Source: Planctomycetota bacterium (GTDB lineage: Bacteria; Planctomycetota; Phycisphaerae; Phycisphaerales; SM1A02). Taken from it: a DNA stretch of 64,000 bases. The stretch's first letter is position 1. Every line of letters begins with the position of its first letter. Both the position numbers and the translations under genes were made by a program. The stretch covers positions 21,239 through 85,238 of the forward strand of contig JACZRS010000012.1 of assembly GCA_022574595.1 (NCBI GenBank), read 5' to 3'. Positions 9,168 through 36,815 of this stretch are shown here, piece by piece. The notes below the pieces were generated by a model. The model did not search any database. It was not told the DNA's origin and saw nothing but the letters and a program-made list of their open reading frames with translations.

Positions 9168-10025
9168 TTATTTATTACAACAATTAGTCGCAAAAGCGCA
9201 AAGCTCATCTAGCAGCAATTGAAACTCTGGGCTGGGATCCTGGTCATTTGGCAGTGGGTTTGGCGTATTAAATACATGATCACCACCTGCAATTCTAAGA
9301 ATCTTCGCGTCATCATGTGCAGCATTAACAATTTTCTCAGCCGATTCAACCGGTACTGTGGGATCATCTTCACCGTGAATTACCAGTAGCGGACATGTGA
9401 TACTGCCTACTAATGCCAGTAAATCGTGAGCTATTGGATCTTCTTGTTGCTCAGTTAGTGCTATCTTACCAACCCGCAAATCCTGGCCGGTTCGAGATGA
9501 GGGCGAAACAATGAAGCCATCTTCAAGTAGCTGCTTCACTGCTTCAGGTGGAAGATTTAGACATTGACAAGGAGCCGCTGCAGTCACAACGCCTGCTGGT
9601 TGAGTGAATGTTGAATCATTAGCATATCGACCCGCAGTTAGCAGCACCGACACCCCACCGCGCGAATGCCCAAATATAACATAAGGCAATTTACCGCCCG
9701 CCAAACGGCCATCGGTTATGGCTTCAATAACCGCTCGACAATCAAAGACCTGTTTGTTCCACGTATCACGTTCAAAAAGATCAGTTCGCTCAAACGTAGC
9801 GATATTGTTCGTCATACCCGAGTGGCTGAAGTTAAAGCGATGCGCAATAAACCCCTCTACCGCTGCTGTTTGAGCAATCCGCGGAAACATGCCATAATCT
9901 TTATACCCCTTAAAACCATGCGCGATGACAACTACTCCGCGCGCATCCTCATCAGGCAAATGCACATTACCAAGAATCTCCTGCCCATCCGCCCCCGGAA
10001 GTGTCCAATGTTGGTTACTTGACAT
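9168..10025 (-). CDS. Alpha/beta hydrolase (dienelactone hydrolase/S9-like)
   Basis: A 285-residue cytoplasmic serine hydrolase with the alpha/beta fold. The oxyanion strand VVIAHGFKGYKD, the nucleophile elbow GHSRGG (Ser121), an acid in GEDDPTVPVE (Asp near 223) and a catalytic His in GGDHVF are all visible. AGAGGAG lies 6 bases before the ATG. It is convergent with smc, only 13 bases separating the two stops. Similar proteins are annotated as hydrolases linked to OsmC or as acyl esterases; the substrate is unknown. Confidence 0.85.
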   Translation of the reverse strand: MSSNQHWTLPGADGQEILGNVHLPDEDARGVVVIAHGFKGYKDYGMFPRIAQTAAVEGFIAHRFNFSHSGMTNNIATFERTDLFERDTWNKQVFDCRAVIEAITDGRLAGGKLPYVIFGHSRGGVSVLLTAGRYANDSTFTQPAGVVTAAAPCQCLNLPPEAVKQLLEDGFIVSPSSRTGQDLRVGKIALTEQQEDPIAHDLLALVGSITCPLLVIHGEDDPTVPVESAEKIVNAAHDDAKILRIAGGDHVFNTPNPLPNDQDPSPEFQLLLDELCAFATNCCNK

Positions 10026-10269: not shown

Positions 10270-10357
10270 GTGGCATGGGCGTCTCGCCCGTGCGGGTTTG
10301 CCTTTTAAGATTTACTTTTAAAACAAATCATGTGCACGGGCGGGACGCCCGTGCCAC
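10270..10357. repeat. Long inverted repeat B (GTGGCATGGGCGTCTCGCC type)
   Basis: The arms at 10270-10293 and 10334-10357 are 24 bases each and pair with two mismatches. Each arm is itself nearly palindromic (GGGCG.C.CGCCC). A decayed relative with the same arm sequence and similar spacing lies at 52979-53040, so this is a dispersed element and not a local hairpin. It follows inverted repeat A directly. Confidence 0.75.
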
Positions 10358-10610
10358 CATGAAGGACGCGGCCGGCGGTCGCGGCTTTATAGCTCGGAAT
10401 AACCTTAAAATTACCGGACTTGCCTAATCCCCCATGCCTCCTAAAACTGCACGACAATCCGCCTCTAGGGCTTACAATCAGCTACAAATCATGGCATCCC
10501 CTAGGTCAGTCGATCTCTTATTAGGGAATATCAAAGGTCTATAAAAGCGGTTTAAAGCAGATCCCTAAACTCTGCGCTTTGACAATTACCTTTGAAAACA
10601 GGTGAGATTG

Positions 10611-12725
10611 ATGATTGTCGGCGCAATGACAGATAATCTTCCAGCTATGGTTCTTGCTATCAGCGTGTTGCTATTGGCAGTACTGTTGATATTTGCACCG
10701 TCGCCAAGACGCATTCTCCCCCGCATTCCCAGATGGCTTCTTATTATTGGCATGATGCTGGTATTGCCTTGGATTATATTTACTGGAATTGAGGGCAAAG
10801 ATTTACCCAATACGCTGGGCTTGGCTTTGGATCTTGCAAGACAGTTTGAGGTAATCAGCTATATTACCTTTGCCGGCCTTGCCTGCACTTTCTTAGGTAT
10901 TATTGGATCCATCACGGGACATTCGCGCCCTAATCAAAAACCAATTAAAGAAGAACGACGCAAAGCTAATAATGTAGGAAAATTAATCGGCAAGCAATCG
11001 AATAAGGAACTTGTCAATGCTTTGCTGCGAAGCTCGCCAAACGGAATGATGGTTCTAAGGCCTATTCGTGATAAGGAAAATGGGCTTGTCGACTTTGAGT
11101 GTTGGTTAGCTAACCCCGCAGCTGAACAAATACTTGGCAAACCCCATTCACATCTACTTAGCACGCCAATACTCGAATTATTTCCCTGTGTAAAAACCAA
11201 CGGCTTATTCGACCTTGCATGTAGCGTGATCAAAACCGGCTTACCAATGGATGAGCAACGAGAAGGCGTACAAGGCAACATAAAATCTTGGTACCACATC
11301 AATGCGGTCAAGCATGCAAGCGGCTTAGCCGTAACAATTGCTGATATTTCAGTTCGTAAACGCTTGGAACATGACCTGCGTCATGCCGCTCGACATGATG
11401 CACTTACGGGCTTGCCCAACCGCGCACTTTTCAAGAAGCGACTGGAACAAGCCGTACATCGAACCAGACGCCAGAGTGATTACAAATTTGCGGTTCTGTT
11501 CATTGATTTTGATCGATTTAAAGAAGTAAACGACCGTTTAGGACATGATGTCGGAGACGAACTATTAAAAAGTATCGCTGATAGATTAAGAGCTAACTTA
11601 CGCGCTATCGATTCTGTTGTAAGTGAATCTGGAGGTCATCTACCAGCCCGCCTTGGTGGCGATGAATTTGTCATTCTCCTAGATGGAATTCAGGAATTGC
11701 ACAACGCAGAAATTGTTGCTGAACGATTAAGGCTGGATCTTGCGGAAGCTCATCGCATTGGTGGAAAGCTTGTAACCTCTACTGCAAGTATTGGTATTGT
11801 GACAAGCGATGGCGAATATTCTAACGCCGATGACGTTATGCGCAATGCTGATAAAGCTATGTACCGCGCCAAGGTCGAAGGACGATCTCGGTGTGTGGTG
11901 TTTGATGAGAAAATGCATAGCGCAATGGCTACGGAAGTGGCCTTGGAAAAAGAATTGCAACAAGCTGTGGATAGCGGCGCTTTTATCTTGGAATATCAAC
12001 CAATAGTCTCATTACAGTCTGGCAGAATAGCGGGATTCGAAGCTCTTATTCGTTGGCCACACCCGCAACGTGGAATTGTCCTGCCCGATGATTTTATAAA
12101 TTTAGCAGTGCAGCTTGGTCTAATGAAAACAATCGGCCGATGGGTATTGCGCAACGCCTGTCTGGCATTACATGATTGGAGCCAAAAAGTTCCAGCTGCT
12201 TTACCTCTGACAATGAGCGTTAATATCTCTAATCAAGAGTTGTTGCAACCTGACTTGATTGAAATTCTCACAAACACAATCAAGGAAACCAACATAGAGC
12301 CTTCGGCACTTAGATTAGATTTGTCCGAAAATCTGTTTACCAGCTGGCCTGAAGAAATCGGAGAAATCCTTTCCAAACTTAAAGACCTTGGCGTAACGCT
12401 AGCCGTAGATGATTTCGGTGCTGAGCATTCTTCGCTCAATCTTCTCGATAGCTACGGTTTGGATAGCTTGAAAATCGATGGTTGTTTCTTGACAAACTAT
12501 ACCAAAGCCAACAATAGATCGGCAATGCTCCGATCCATTGTCGATCTAGCGCATAATTTGAAGATGTCTGTAGTAGCGGAAGGCGTGGAAACCGAAGATC
12601 AATTGAGCCTCTTACAAAAACTAGGTTGTGACTATGGCCAGGGGTGGATCTTCTCAGAACCGGTTAGTGCAGATAAAGCTGTTGATCTTCTCAGCCGCGA
12701 TGCGGGCATGAGGCTTGCGAGCTAG
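10611..12725 (+). CDS. PAS-GGDEF-EAL protein (cyclic-di-GMP turnover), membrane anchored
   Basis: A frame exists from GTG 10602, but AGGTGA precedes the ATG at 10611 by six bases, so 10611 is chosen (704 residues). Three hydrophobic segments fill residues 5-100 and should anchor it in the inner membrane. A PAS-like region spans about 135-245. The GGDEF domain has an intact RLGGDEF (G349) and should make c-di-GMP; its inhibitory RxxD (RAID) is displaced by an insertion of about ten residues, so normal product inhibition is doubtful. The EAL domain has FEALIRW (E477), SVNISNQEL, AVDDFGA and AEGVETEDQ, so phosphodiesterase activity is also plausible. Alone in its transcription unit. Confidence 0.93.
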   Translation: MIVGAMTDNLPAMVLAISVLLLAVLLIFAPSPRRILPRIPRWLLIIGMMLVLPWIIFTGIEGKDLPNTLGLALDLARQFEVISYITFAGLACTFLGIIGSITGHSRPNQKPIKEERRKANNVGKLIGKQSNKELVNALLRSSPNGMMVLRPIRDKENGLVDFECWLANPAAEQILGKPHSHLLSTPILELFPCVKTNGLFDLACSVIKTGLPMDEQREGVQGNIKSWYHINAVKHASGLAVTIADISVRKRLEHDLRHAARHDALTGLPNRALFKKRLEQAVHRTRRQSDYKFAVLFIDFDRFKEVNDRLGHDVGDELLKSIADRLRANLRAIDSVVSESGGHLPARLGGDEFVILLDGIQELHNAEIVAERLRLDLAEAHRIGGKLVTSTASIGIVTSDGEYSNADDVMRNADKAMYRAKVEGRSRCVVFDEKMHSAMATEVALEKELQQAVDSGAFILEYQPIVSLQSGRIAGFEALIRWPHPQRGIVLPDDFINLAVQLGLMKTIGRWVLRNACLALHDWSQKVPAALPLTMSVNISNQELLQPDLIEILTNTIKETNIEPSALRLDLSENLFTSWPEEIGEILSKLKDLGVTLAVDDFGAEHSSLNLLDSYGLDSLKIDGCFLTNYTKANNRSAMLRSIVDLAHNLKMSVVAEGVETEDQLSLLQKLGCDYGQGWIFSEPVSADKAVDLLSRDAGMRLAS

Positions 12726-29853: not shown

Positions 29854-31953
29854 TTATAGGCGCTGTTTGACCATTGCCTCCACGCCGCCGCTAACGATTA
29901 GTTCCTGTGCGACGGTACTTAGTGGCGAGAAGACGTATTTTTTATCCTGCATAGTTATCATTGATGCAGCGAAATCGATAGAAATCTCCGGGCCGGGGAT
30001 AGTAGCTTTACTACCCTCTCCCTTCAGGCTCCCCTCTCCCCTTGGGAGAGGGGTTGGGGTCTCCATAGGCGACTCGCCTGGCCGAGGTGAGGGTCTTTCA
30101 TCTTCTTTTTGTGCTTTTCGACCAGATTTAACTTCCGAAGAACCCTCACCCGTCTCGCTGCGCGAGCCACCCTCTCCCAAGGGGAGAGGGGAAGAATACT
30201 GAGCAAGAAGTGCATCGTACAACTCCGGGCTTTCCATCACCAAGAAACCATTATTAAAAGCGTTGCGTTTATATGTTTGACTAAATGATGCTGCTATCAC
30301 ACATTGGATTCCTCGAAGTCTTAAGCAGGTTGCTGCTTGTTCACGTGATGAACCTGTGCCGAAGTTTCGGCCTGCGATGATGATGTCCCCTTTCTGCGCT
30401 ATCTCATTAAAGTTGGGATCGTAGTTGGCCATGGAAGCAGCAGCCATTTCATTTTCACTAACATCATCGCGGTAAGTCAGTTTGCCTGAATATATGCCAT
30501 CTGTATTTAGATTATCAACTGGTAATAGCAGTGACCTACCAACCATTGTTCGTGGGAATTCATCTAATATTTTAACGATGCCTGCATCACGTTTTAGTTC
30601 GTTAACTTTTATTGAAAAATTCGGTTTAGTGTTTTCGTATTCGTGTGGCGAACATATGTAGCCAGCAAGCGCAGACGCAGCTACAACTGCGGGGCTACCT
30701 AAATACGCTTTGGCATCGCGTGAACCCATGCGTCCCTTGAAGTTGCGATTTGTTGCGCTGATGCAAACCTCACCCGGCTGAAGTGTGCCGCGCCCCAGAC
30801 CTATACATGGCCCACAACCGCTGGGTAAAGGTATGGCACCTGCATCGATCAAACTCTGCCAATCGCCGTTTGTTTCCGCTTGGGCTTGTACATCTGCCGA
30901 TGCAGCCGCTACGTAAAATTCCACTCCTTGTGCAACGCTTTTTCCTTTAACAATTGCCGCCGCCTCAGCGAGGTCTTCCAAACGAGCATTAACACAGCTC
31001 AGCAAGTAAGCCTTATTGATCCTTACCTTTTGCTCTTGTATATCCGGTAAAGCGTGCATTACTTTTACATGGTCCGGACCCGAAACATGCGGAATTACTG
31101 TTGTAATATCGAGAGTTAGCTCTACTGCATATTGAGCGCCGGAATCAGCTTCTAATTTATCAGTGAGCCAATCATCTATATCAGTTCGGGAGTAACGTGG
31201 TGTGTTCTTAGAAGCTAAATAATCCGCTCGGCCATAGAGATAATCACGCAACACTTCATCGAAGGGAAACACGCCGCCCAGCGCCCCCCACTCGGTTGTC
31301 ATGTTGGCGATGCTTAAGCGTTGATCCATTGATAGGTTGGCAATGCCATCACCAGTAAATTCGACAATCATGTTTAGAACTTCATCGTTATTGAATAAGC
31401 CGCACAGGGCTATGATTATGTCTTTACCCACCACGCCCGGAAGTAACTGCCCGCTTAGCTTTACCTGGGCAATTAGGGGGATCTGCCACCACGTTTGGCC
31501 GGTGGCCCAGATGCAGGCTGCATCGGTACGGACAACTGGCGTGCCTAGTGCTGCAACTGCGCCATAAAGATTCGAATGTGAATCACTACCAACAACCAAA
31601 CTACCGGGCGTAACGTAACCTTGCTCGACCATGACCTGGTGGCTGATACCTGTTCCGGGCGGATAGAAATCTATGCCATGCTTCTTGGCAAACGCTTCGA
31701 TCTTTGCGTACTTAGCAAGATTTTCCGGCGAAGTGTTTTGTATATCGTGATCGATAGCAAATACCGGCTGGGTTGGATCATGAATCTTTGTCGCACCAAT
31801 ATTGGCAAACTTGCCCATCACCGCAGAAGTGTTGTCGTGAGTCATGATGTGCTTGGGTTTTATATTTACAAAATCGCCTGTGTAAACAAGCTGGCCAGCA
31901 TCAAGCCCAGTAGCGAAACAAGTAGCAATTTTTTCAACAAGTGTTTGTGGCAT
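29854..31953 (-). CDS. Single-chain homoaconitase (Lys4-like)/aconitase-family hydratase with an in-frame repeat insertion
   Basis: A 699-residue hydro-lyase with large and small aconitase domains in one chain, in the order LeuC-LeuD. It strongly recalls fungal homoaconitase Lys4: IWATGQTWWQIP, ALCGLFNNDEVLN, IANMTTEWGALGGVFP, LPSGCGPCIGLG, SATNRNFKGRMGS, DNLNTDGIYSGKLTYRDDV and GTGSSREQAATCLRLRG. The cluster Cys residues are in LLSCVNARLED and SGCGPC. Residues about 588-648 (from SPLPLGEGG through TPLPRGEGS) are translated palindromic repeat, inserted in frame near the end of the small domain. Without them it is about 639 residues. Substrate may be homoaconitate/homocitrate or aconitate/citrate. 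A membrane-protein gene lies 12 bases upstream. Confidence 0.9.
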   Translation of the reverse strand: MPQTLVEKIATCFATGLDAGQLVYTGDFVNIKPKHIMTHDNTSAVMGKFANIGATKIHDPTQPVFAIDHDIQNTSPENLAKYAKIEAFAKKHGIDFYPPGTGISHQVMVEQGYVTPGSLVVGSDSHSNLYGAVAALGTPVVRTDAACIWATGQTWWQIPLIAQVKLSGQLLPGVVGKDIIIALCGLFNNDEVLNMIVEFTGDGIANLSMDQRLSIANMTTEWGALGGVFPFDEVLRDYLYGRADYLASKNTPRYSRTDIDDWLTDKLEADSGAQYAVELTLDITTVIPHVSGPDHVKVMHALPDIQEQKVRINKAYLLSCVNARLEDLAEAAAIVKGKSVAQGVEFYVAAASADVQAQAETNGDWQSLIDAGAIPLPSGCGPCIGLGRGTLQPGEVCISATNRNFKGRMGSRDAKAYLGSPAVVAASALAGYICSPHEYENTKPNFSIKVNELKRDAGIVKILDEFPRTMVGRSLLLPVDNLNTDGIYSGKLTYRDDVSENEMAAASMANYDPNFNEIAQKGDIIIAGRNFGTGSSREQAATCLRLRGIQCVIAASFSQTYKRNAFNNGFLVMESPELYDALLAQYSSPLPLGEGGSRSETGEGSSEVKSGRKAQKEDERPSPRPGESPMETPTPLPRGEGSLKGEGSKATIPGPEISIDFAASMITMQDKKYVFSPLSTVAQELIVSGGVEAMVKQRL
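30013..30191. repeat. Palindromic repeat element E inserted in a coding region
   Basis: CCCCTCTCCCCTTGGGAGAGGG at 30031-30052 recurs exactly, inverted, at 30170-30191, with about 117 bases between. Its core resembles the CCCTCTCCC...GGGAGAGGG element at 36239-36262. The segment contains 13 bases (GTCTCCATAGGCG, 30059-30071) shared in reverse with dispersed repeat D copy 2. It keeps the homoaconitase-like frame open for about 60 codons. Confidence 0.85.
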
Positions 31954-35611: not shown

Positions 35612-36190
35612 CTATTTTGTTGCTTGTTTGCCCAGGTACTTCGCGATGTCGAAGTCTACGAAATCCGCGTGATGGAATATTATTGATTCAATTGATCGTT
35701 GAACCTTGTCGCCTTCGTGTGAGTGGGTTGCGATTATGTGCATTACTTCAGGTGGGACATCGTGCTTAAAACAAAGACCAACACCTGAAAATGGATGACG
35801 TAGTGCTTCGCCGTAGGAGCCTTTTATTACGTTGCCTGATGAATCTTTATCGAACTCCAGCATTTTGCCCACATCAGCTAATAGCGCACCTGCGATTAGA
35901 TAATCACGATTGATTGGCACGCGATCGCCAAAGACTGAGTTTAGTACATCTGCGATTGCAATACATTGTTTGACACATGAGTTTAGGTGTTCAACGAAGC
36001 GCATATCGATATCGCCTGCTAGTAGGGTGAATTTGATTTGGCGCATTTCGTCGAAGGTCCAGCCTTTGCCGCCGCAGCCGGTAGTTATGGATTCGTTCCA
36101 TACTGCTGCGACTTTATTGCGTAGGGATTCATCGGTAATGGCCATGATTTCGGGGAAGAGAATGGCGATTTCTTTTGTTGTGTGTGTCAT
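35612..36190 (-). CDS. HD-domain-like protein (possible metal-site loss)
   Basis: A 192-residue helical protein resembling HD/HDIG phosphohydrolases: FVEHLNSCVKQCIAIADVL, AGALLADVGKMLEF, HPFSGVGLCFKHDVPPEVMH and IIATHSHEGD. In the usual HDxGK motif the His is replaced by Ala (LADVGK), which would remove a metal ligand, although the other His residues remain. Homologues act on nucleotides or cyclic dinucleotides; activity here is uncertain. It is the last gene of the run beginning with the SucC-like gene, separated from the GNAT gene by 79 bases that contain palindromic repeat DNA. Confidence 0.75.
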   Translation of the reverse strand: MTHTTKEIAILFPEIMAITDESLRNKVAAVWNESITTGCGGKGWTFDEMRQIKFTLLAGDIDMRFVEHLNSCVKQCIAIADVLNSVFGDRVPINRDYLIAGALLADVGKMLEFDKDSSGNVIKGSYGEALRHPFSGVGLCFKHDVPPEVMHIIATHSHEGDKVQRSIESIIFHHADFVDFDIAKYLGKQATK

Positions 36191-36238
36191 GGTTTTGTGT
36201 GGAATTTATTTGAATGAATTAAGAACCCTCACCCCTAG

Positions 36239-36262
36239 CCCCTCTCCCAGGGGGAGAGGGGG
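36239..36262. repeat. Palindromic repeat E, short copy
   Basis: CCCCTCTCCCAGGGGGAGAG followed by GGGG is a palindrome of the same CCCTCTCCC/GGGAGAGGG type as the element inside the homoaconitase-like gene. It is preceded by AGAACCCTCACCCCTAGC, the same lead sequence type as at 30139-30152. It separates the GNAT and HD genes and might also attenuate transcription. Confidence 0.8.
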
Positions 36263-36269
36263 ATAAGAG

Positions 36270-36815
36270 TTAAGAATCGTATTGATCTCGTGTTATTGCG
36301 TAGATTGCTAGATCTTGATATTCACCATCCTTCATTACGTGCTGCCTTAGTGTACCTTCGTAGCTCATACCCATTTTCTGCATTACTTTACCAGACTGTG
36401 GGTTTTTAGTCATGTGGTGAGAGTGAATACGATTGAGTTCGAGCATCTTAAAACCATAATTCAGAATTTCGCGAGCTGCTTCTGTGCAGTAACCTTTATT
36501 CCAATAAGGTTTACCGATCCAATACCCCATTTCTGCGTGTGCATGTTTACGCTTTATTCCTAAACCAATGGCACCTATTAGCTTGCCAGTTTCACTAAGT
36601 ATAATGGCAAATGTTATAGCTTTCCCCTCATCGTAAAATGGTTTGTGCTTGGAGATCCAATTCTCAGCTTCACCATCGGGATAAGGATGTGGGATATTTA
36701 GTGTCGTAGCAGCGATTTCTCTTTCGCTAACTAAAGGGCGCACCTCCGCAACATCATCCAGCGTAAACGGCCGAAGTGTTAATCGATCAGTTTGTAACGC
36801 AGGTTGATCTTCCAT
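36270..36815 (-). CDS. GNAT acetyltransferase, RimJ/RimL type
   Basis: A 181-residue N-acetyltransferase: start motif TDRLTLRPFTLDDVAEV, central strand IGAIGLGIKRKHAHAEMGYW, acetyl-CoA-binding turn GKPYWNKGYCTEA, and C-terminal NPQSGKVMQKMGMSYEGTLR. RimJ/RimL members acetylate protein N-termini, antibiotics or amino acids; the substrate is not evident. It starts 3 bases after the citryl-CoA-lyase-like gene, so it is cotranscribed with that operon. Confidence 0.88.
   Translation of the reverse strand: MEDQPALQTDRLTLRPFTLDDVAEVRPLVSEREIAATTLNIPHPYPDGEAENWISKHKPFYDEGKAITFAIILSETGKLIGAIGLGIKRKHAHAEMGYWIGKPYWNKGYCTEAAREILNYGFKMLELNRIHSHHMTKNPQSGKVMQKMGMSYEGTLRQHVMKDGEYQDLAIYAITRDQYDS

Follow-up and report, generated by a model that had tools for sequence, protein, structure and literature searches.

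An in-frame repeat with REPIN anatomy in a planctomycete homoaconitase gene, and related copies in other conserved genes

Introduction

Rickettsia palindromic elements (RPEs) were reportedly described by Ogata in 2000 and 2002. They enter unrelated genes in frame, as parts of two papers set out (PMC10969869, PMC3733652), and in the latter, as excerpted, Di Nocera et al. (2013) describe in-frame repetitive extragenic palindromic sequences (REPs) in open reading frames (ORFs) of several phyla, including about the same recB site in two Xanthomonas species. Short bacterial mobile repeats are often modelled as destroying the gene they hit; in the model given in excerpts of PMC8049555, a REPIN (a hairpin-forming REP doublet) copied into a gene destroys that gene. 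Here, we analyse a segment that lies in frame in the gene for a fused homoaconitase-type hydro-lyase of a Planctomycetota bacterium, within a 64,000-nt stretch of DNA (the window: assembly GCA_022574595.1, contig JACZRS010000012.1, positions 21,239 to 85,238; positions below are those of the window unless a locus is named). The genome to which it belongs (4.09 Mb, 31 contigs; G000) is referred to as the own genome. The segment is very probably a non-autonomous mobile repeat of the REPIN type, situated in frame in a permissive loop of homoaconitase, translated and tolerated.

Results

A pair of inverted hairpin units in the homoaconitase gene

The host protein is a homoaconitase according to a protein family search (TIGR00139, 754 bits against a cut-off of 530), with Pfam matches to Aconitase at residues 31-431 and to Aconitase_C at residues 458-576. 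Its frame of 699 codons is uninterrupted across the segment 30013-30191, which, to judge from the open frame, adds about 60 Ser/Gly/Pro/Glu-rich residues to a loop of the C-terminal domain; an example of the encoded peptide is SSPLPLGEGGSR. In an AlphaFold2 model built with 47 sequences (mean predicted local distance difference test score, pLDDT, of 86), the sole stretch below 50 consists of residues 590-647, flanked by a helix that ends at residue 586 and a strand that starts at residue 652. Among solved structures, aconitases come nearest, together with subunits of homoaconitase or isopropylmalate isomerase; the prediction for the insert is a disordered loop, and the fold is otherwise ordinary. 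An earlier reading of the letters without database searches (the sequence-only reading) had placed about 60 additional in-frame residues inside the enzyme; the ORF is indeed open throughout, and the limits of the low-pLDDT region nearly coincide with those that it gave (Table 1).

The repeat, which we call family 1, is built from a unit that consists of CCCTCACC, a variable stretch, and then CCCTCTCCC NNN GGGAGAGGG, where CCCTCTCCC and GGGAGAGGG pair as a 9-bp hairpin with a 3-nt loop. The foot of the unit reads CTAG, CCAA, CCAG and others in the unit listings, with neither a GTAG nor a CGTC tag. The sequence-only reading had described the segment as one palindrome bounded by perfect 22-nt arms. 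Perfect inverted repeats are present and the segment is palindromic, but the arms measure 23 nt, and the palindrome resolves into two hairpin units, A and B, in opposite orientation, like a REPIN pair. The two arms are separated by 117 nt, and each of them alone is a 9-bp hairpin. The homoaconitase insert has, then, the anatomy of a REPIN. When the coding-strand RNA of positions 29990-30200 (insert with short flanks) is folded (-107.2 kcal/mol, z = -6.4), units A and B pair into one long hairpin. An Rfam search with the insert found no family at the gathering score; its three hits, with E values up to 1, were all far below.

Other own-genome copies share the extra module of about 27 nt in unit B; one of them, on contig 17, matches at 96% over 70 nt. 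By alignment, the module is missing from the inserts of the two related isolates introduced below, B63T3L11 and B2T1B10; gain here and loss there are both possible.

An insertion at a site common to three genomes

We compared 80 named homoaconitase orthologues, 77 of which include the loop; L048, L115 and L117 end before it and were left out. The nearest are metagenome-assembled Planctomycetota, many of them labelled Phycisphaerales. A matching two-unit insert, in the same frame and place, occurs in two of the 77, L039 (isolate B63T3L11; the same contig as locus L010 of genome G036) and L040 (isolate B2T1B10). The other 75 are devoid of the family-1 insert, and the comparison with orthologues that had been proposed together with the sequence-only reading thereby finds that the segment is not carried by all of them. 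Among these 75, L058 and L076 have a different palindrome in the loop, and L042 has a few extra residues with no recognised palindrome. A second alignment of 24 loci (own plus 23, partly from the same genomes) gave the same pattern. In all three metagenome-assembled genomes (MAGs), the frame is kept though the net insert lengths differ by whole codons, which speaks for translation. An assembly artefact is unlikely, as two other MAGs carry the insert in frame at the same place, and was rejected; an intein or intron reading was rejected as well.

The codons of the insert are unevenly conserved. Before the insert, 484 of 590 residues are identical between the window and B63T3L11, and the codon is the same in 214 of those 484. 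In the two units, by comparison, 28 of 32 codons are the same, against 229 of 518 in both flanks (Fisher p = 1.4e-6, the unit limits having been chosen after the alignment was viewed); with B2T1B10, the corresponding fractions are 25/30 and 229/518. Compared with each other, B63T3L11 and B2T1B10 differ too little to be informative in this respect. A blind third-position scan against B63T3L11 found all 19 codons of a 19-codon window in agreement at unit A and none above 16 farther than 19 codons away (666 windows). The units keep their DNA sequence although the spacer between them drifts; we read this as continuing selection on the hairpins as nucleic acid or as repair from other copies. Repair of unit A would be the harder because G000 and G036 each have a single strict copy with its 19-nt module; a similar module is found in the more distant G040. 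The B2T1B10 insert is without part of the hairpin arm of unit B.

Copy number and spread of family 1

A search of the 4.09-Mb own genome that allowed up to two mismatches found the core pattern 57 times and a reversed control not at all. Strict units number 31 in the own genome, 7 in G036, 96 in G003 and 13 in G009 (control, 0). In a sample of the phylum, they occur patchily, in 22 of 294 Planctomycetota genomes, with a maximum of 160 copies in G204 and no control matches. Partial matches covering 18-33% of the query lie on 8 of 72,556 plasmid records (Azospirillum, Sphingobium, Xanthomonas and Pseudanabaena). The likeness of the core to intergenic repeats elsewhere, remarked upon in the sequence-only reading, is thus borne out, down to one more unit outside a gene in the window itself (Table 1). 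The same reading had ascribed the class of palindromes to "this genome": they are multi-copy there but not private to it. The second unit in the window is also covered by a plus-strand ORF of 118 aa (35910-36266), mostly antisense to ORF 35612-36190, which we take as spurious.

Two other arrangements were seen in the own genome. Loci L144, L157 and L166 contain similar small genes, whose proteins start with MAKTKKKRKK or alike, with tandem family-1 hairpins just upstream, as if genes and hairpins had been copied together. Loci L158 and L187 contain a sister repeat with CCCCCTCCC...GGGAGGGGG hairpins; at L187, an ORF that by eye looks like a dehydrogenase has PSLPGRGLGGG at its end.

In-frame copies in other conserved genes

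We sorted the own-genome copies into coding and other, another check proposed with the sequence-only reading. There are 52 distinct cores at 45 loci (of 47 regions, L178 and L180 were without a core), and 8 of the 52 lie in frame inside five conserved genes: two in homoaconitase, three in a TlyA-like rRNA methyltransferase and one each in a CstA-like transporter, the 6-phosphogluconate dehydrogenase Gnd and an MnmE-like GTPase, where the CstA-, MnmE- and TlyA-like names rest on NCBIfam matches that fall short of the curated cut-offs. When the proteins are aligned with relatives, the copies in the four genes other than homoaconitase each lie in a variable loop. The own Gnd copy fills a loop of about normal length, in which the Gnd of G003 has another copy, PHPQPLSQRERG. 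In the Gnd of G036, a complete unit stands in frame at a different loop, KEKSPHPSPLPGGEGIREA, and is missing in the 11 other Gnd rows (own plus ten relatives). The MnmE-like and TlyA-like proteins of G036 have shorter, degenerate versions in the same loops, judged by their peptides. With age, in-frame copies seem to degenerate into ordinary loops: the G036 Gnd copy looks fresh, the homoaconitase copy is conserved between genera, and some others look eroded.

In the relatives, a unit was counted as lying inside a conserved gene if domain matches stood on both sides of it or spanned it, or on the basis of an orthologue alignment; Pfam was run on 40 ORFs over units in G003, G009 and G036. Counted in this way are 3 of 6 loci in G036 (homoaconitase, Gnd and KsgA), 4 of 12 in G009 (RarA, aldehyde dehydrogenase, PurL and IleRS) and 9 of 62 fetched loci in G003 (from 73 clusters; the fetched regions L302/L303, L318/L319 and L356/L357 overlap). 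G000 and G036 share the homoaconitase insertion, and this single event enters the counts of both. The host genes in G003 are those for Gnd, dihydrolipoamide acyltransferase, Lhr helicase, PutA, an IMS-family polymerase, QueG, a carbon-nitrogen hydrolase, a B12-binding/MeaB fusion and a histone-deacetylase-like enzyme. The acyltransferase (L311:952-2478, minus strand) has a family-1 unit pair in each of two interdomain linkers, and the Lhr helicase has three units between two domains.

Less firm among those counted are QueG (L334) and IMS (L331), where the domain match starts inside the profile just after the insert, and PutA (L327) and the aldehyde dehydrogenase (L360), where a second matched stretch is assumed to follow the insert. 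Outside the firm counts stand L309 (an aconitase, with the unit after the matched domain), L319, L349, L356 and L368 (MFS, below cut-off). Not counted were L173, L174, L340, L363 and L369, with the unit close to one end, or outside the domain that was matched, and ORFs that have units but no domain match (e.g., L305, L359 and L367), which were not taken as genes. Overall, family-1 units occur in unrelated genes, in several frames and in both orientations, and the majority of copies are still outside recognised genes.

A second palindrome family in the same loop

The homoaconitase inserts of L058 and L076 contain the palindromes GCACAGGCG AGA CGCCTGTGC and GCACGGGCG TCC CGCCCGTGC, which define family 2. 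A search for this pattern gave 24 matches in the own genome, 31 in G003, among which is one at the homoaconitase insert, 28 in the L076 genome, 13 in G036 and none in G009 (control, 0). At least two families have thus used one homoaconitase loop, family 2 in two other lineages, and the loop was probably entered in three separate events. In the own genome, a further family-2 palindrome is inserted in frame into the N-terminal domain of a B12-dependent ribonucleotide reductase (contig 18, L424:3-2072, minus strand), where, judged by the peptides, it is probably a pair.

Y1 transposases inside valyl-tRNA synthetase

On contig 21 of the own genome, three family-2 copies surround a match to the Y1_Tnp transposase domain, which is itself in frame inside the gene for valyl-tRNA synthetase (ValS). 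The ValS ORF of 1267 codons scores 995 bits against the valine--tRNA ligase cut-off of 704, and its residues 476-610 match the equivalog NF047646 for REP-associated tyrosine transposases (RAYTs) with 95.9 bits against a cut-off of 80. In an alignment to the Thermus ValS structure (1gax), residue 404 of the query is followed by residue 650 where the structure goes from 363 to 377. A RAYT of this kind also occupies the site in the ValS of G036 (NF047646, 89.8 bits); the ValS score of 484 bits is below the cut-off there because the gene is cut by the contig end. Between G000 and G036, 105 of 154 residues of the embedded RAYT are identical, as against 393 of 583 in the rest of ValS, and third positions agree in 70 of 154 and 211 of 583, respectively. 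Both keep the HUH motif and stand among family-2 palindromes or their peptides. Being as conserved as the rest of ValS, the embedded RAYT seems to be under selection as a protein.

The ValS proteins of G009 and G044 pass the cut-off (936 and 1001 bits) and harbour a different Y1 domain there. By its NHVH/DHVH and YVxxxQ motifs, this domain is similar by eye to class 3 as characterised in part of PMC6006769, and 70 of 157 residues are identical between the two genomes. The domain lies between SRDREGA and PLPHGRGS peptides, perhaps those of a third palindrome family. Taken together, a Y1_Tnp domain inside ValS was found in four of the seven genomes searched, of four genera and at one site. The arrangement is not general: in G003, G204 and G324, no Y1 match was in a frame longer than 353 aa. 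In G009, weak family-1-like matches near 2980 and 3051 of L386, apparently a diverged pair, lie in frame in another ValS loop.

Table 1. Features in the window, followed by valyl-tRNA synthetase genes with an embedded Y1 domain
Feature	Position	Strand	Basis or remark
Fused homoaconitase-type hydro-lyase, 699 aa, host of the insert	29854-31953	minus	ORF list and domain matches
Inserted loop, codons 590-647, predicted disordered, between helix 576-586 and strand 652-660	30013-30186	minus	Orthologue alignment and pLDDT < 50
Partial repeat of hairpin arm, about 18 nt, 6 codons, approximate limits	30011-30028	minus	Repeat spacing 18; no counterpart in two related MAGs
Inverted-repeat arm 1, perfect, 23 nt	30030-30052		Repeat search
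Inverted-repeat arm 2, perfect, 23 nt	30170-30192		Repeat search
Family-1 unit B, oriented opposite to unit A, with the added 27-nt module (length approximate)	30032-30093	minus
Spacer between units A and B, 49 nt, diverged	30094-30142		3 of 13 aligned residues as in B63T3L11
Family-1 unit A: CCCTCACC, 19-nt module, CCCTCTCCC NNN GGGAGAGGG	30143-30190	plus	First on the coding strand, there read in reverse
Second family-1 unit, taken as intergenic	36226-36260	plus	Between minus-strand ORFs 35612-36190 and 36270-36815
Family-2 palindrome GCACGGGCGGGACGCCCGTGC	10334-10354		Between ORFs 9168-10025 and 10602-12725
ValS with embedded RAYT, own genome	L438:1601-5401	minus	Contig 21, also L426
ValS with embedded RAYT, G036	L435:2-2836	plus
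ValS with class-3-like Y1 domain, G009	L436:1182-5216	plus
ValS with class-3-like Y1 domain, G044	L437:617-4465	minus

Discussion

The history that we consider very probable for the homoaconitase segment is that of a mobile repeat. The hairpin unit would multiply in the genome, and two inverted copies would form the REPIN-type element. Such an element would have landed in a permissive surface loop of homoaconitase in a common ancestor of at least three sampled lineages, the frame being kept through the length of the element and its absence of stops. The insert would be translated as about 60 disordered residues that are not removed, with the enzyme presumably still working. By analogy with REPINs, copies may spread as single-stranded hairpins mobilised by a Y1 (HUH) transposase.

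Two other origins were weighed. The 23-nt inverted arms and an extent of about 160 nt would suit a classical miniature inverted-repeat transposable element (MITE), i.e., a deleted insertion sequence of the DDE-transposase kind with terminal inverted repeats, moved by a resident insertion sequence and in frame by chance, and in-frame MITEs are already on record in part of PMC10969869. Most loci of the own genome, however, have a single unit, lone units stand in the Gnd and CstA-like genes, and the arms are themselves hairpins with no target duplication recognised by eye, so that we judge a MITE improbable. Ordinary growth of a disordered loop, with no inserted element, could be suggested by the low complexity of the residues and by loop lengths that vary a little among orthologues; given that the DNA is a genome-wide repeat with the exact hairpin anatomy in both units, this has practically no chance of being right and is refuted by the copy number.

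The hairpins themselves invite two further explanations. One is that the insert is present in the DNA but not in the protein, by ribosome bypassing or by RNA removal helped by the stable hairpin, to which the very stable insert RNA (-107 kcal/mol, z -6.4) and the keeping of the hairpins at the DNA level would be congenial. A frame open in three MAGs despite spacer drift and length differences would be needless if the insert were skipped, family 1 is found in unrelated genes in several frames and both orientations, and no Rfam family reached the gathering score; skipping is, in our estimation, very unlikely. The other, which we hold to be unlikely without dismissing it, is that the hairpin was co-opted as a regulatory mRNA element of homoaconitase, with the peptide as a by-product. 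The unit codons are strongly kept (28/32 against 229/518) and the units pair into one long hairpin, as such a role would have it, but the same family occurs in unrelated genes, B2T1B10 lacks part of the unit B arm, and 75 of the 77 named orthologues do without the insert. Homogenisation with other copies could yield the same conservation, though the unit A module stands in a single strict copy of each of G000 and G036.

Several observations weigh against the origin as a REPIN-type mobile repeat that we prefer. No clear case of a Y1 transposase beside a family-1 unit was found at 37 Y1_Tnp loci with flanks up to 1.5 kb (7 from the own genome, and 30 of the 60 that matched in six relatives; the transposase search covered Y1_Tnp only), the sole weak exception being L386 of G009, with two weak family-1-like matches about 1.3 kb from the Y1 match. 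No target duplication was recognised by eye in the listed flanks of family-1 units, nor did a fixed terminal tag emerge: the bases beyond the unit head vary with the genome (mostly AAGA in G000, mostly TG in G003), perhaps as a tag particular to each lineage. Openness to translation is nothing special, since a typical unit has five of six frames open and the shuffle mean is also 5.0. The limits used in the codon test were set post hoc, as said above, and G030 has no strict unit, yet one core in frame in its CstA-like gene.

A broader proposition, to which we would give even odds, is that mobile DNA in these planctomycetes regularly resides in conserved and essential genes, with REPIN-like repeats persisting as translated loops, a transposase that serves at least one family being expressed and inherited from within ValS, and a ValS loop acting as a recurrent docking site of entire transposase genes in frame. 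Inteins use essential proteins as well; the ValS-embedded transposases would differ from them in that no splicing is proposed. The RAYT inside ValS suggests one means by which a genome may retain a transposase. Mobile DNA of the kind described here can add protein segments rather than destroy genes, and the question of whether selfish DNA supplies new protein segments becomes directly testable, as loops, empty orthologues and an order of events are available. Among the matches listed in the open-access literature (subscription papers lie mostly outside it), there was no paper on the family-1 repeat, its DNA core, its peptides or a planctomycete REP or MITE, nor any on a RAYT in ValS.

How family 1 relates to the described systems can be stated as follows. 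With REPINs, as portrayed in excerpts of PMC8049555, the insert shares two inverted units, a short and highly diverse spacer, conserved ends and a joint hairpin. REPINs are linked to RAYTs, whereas no RAYT could be tied to family 1 at the 37 Y1 loci; a RAYT (NF047646) is flanked in the own genome by family-2 palindromes and sits in frame inside ValS. Unlike in the REPIN model of that paper, as excerpted, several family-1 copies in genes are tolerated in frame. The intragenic REPs in part of Di Nocera et al. (PMC3733652) are likewise short hairpin repeats, often dimers, in frame in ORFs of several species, and in-frame REPs outside Rickettsia are therefore already known. Their families carry a GTAG or CGTC foot; family 1 has neither and thus falls outside the GTAG and CGTC REP superfamilies as defined in that part, though it may overlap with a family listed in the paper. 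A further difference from the REPs in that part of the paper is that the interior copies of family 1 were checked against domains or orthologues and that one of them is conserved between genera. What is new here is the planctomycete family, with copies in housekeeping genes verified by domains and orthologues, the persistence between genera with conservation at the nucleotide level, and the use of one loop by different families.

Closest in behaviour are the RPEs, to which the sequence-only reading had already likened the segment. As with these, a dispersed palindrome is found between genes and in frame in unrelated housekeeping genes, to which it adds tens of residues: family 1 is multi-copy, mostly outside genes, and nevertheless in frame in five conserved and unrelated genes of the own genome and in genes of its relatives, while missing in orthologues. 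Family 1 differs from RPEs in belonging to another phylum and in being built of two hairpin units that are dispersed separately, and the two are likened by behaviour, not by sequence. The analogy with Rickettsia palindromic elements is supported, in the form of a REPIN-like variant in Planctomycetota.

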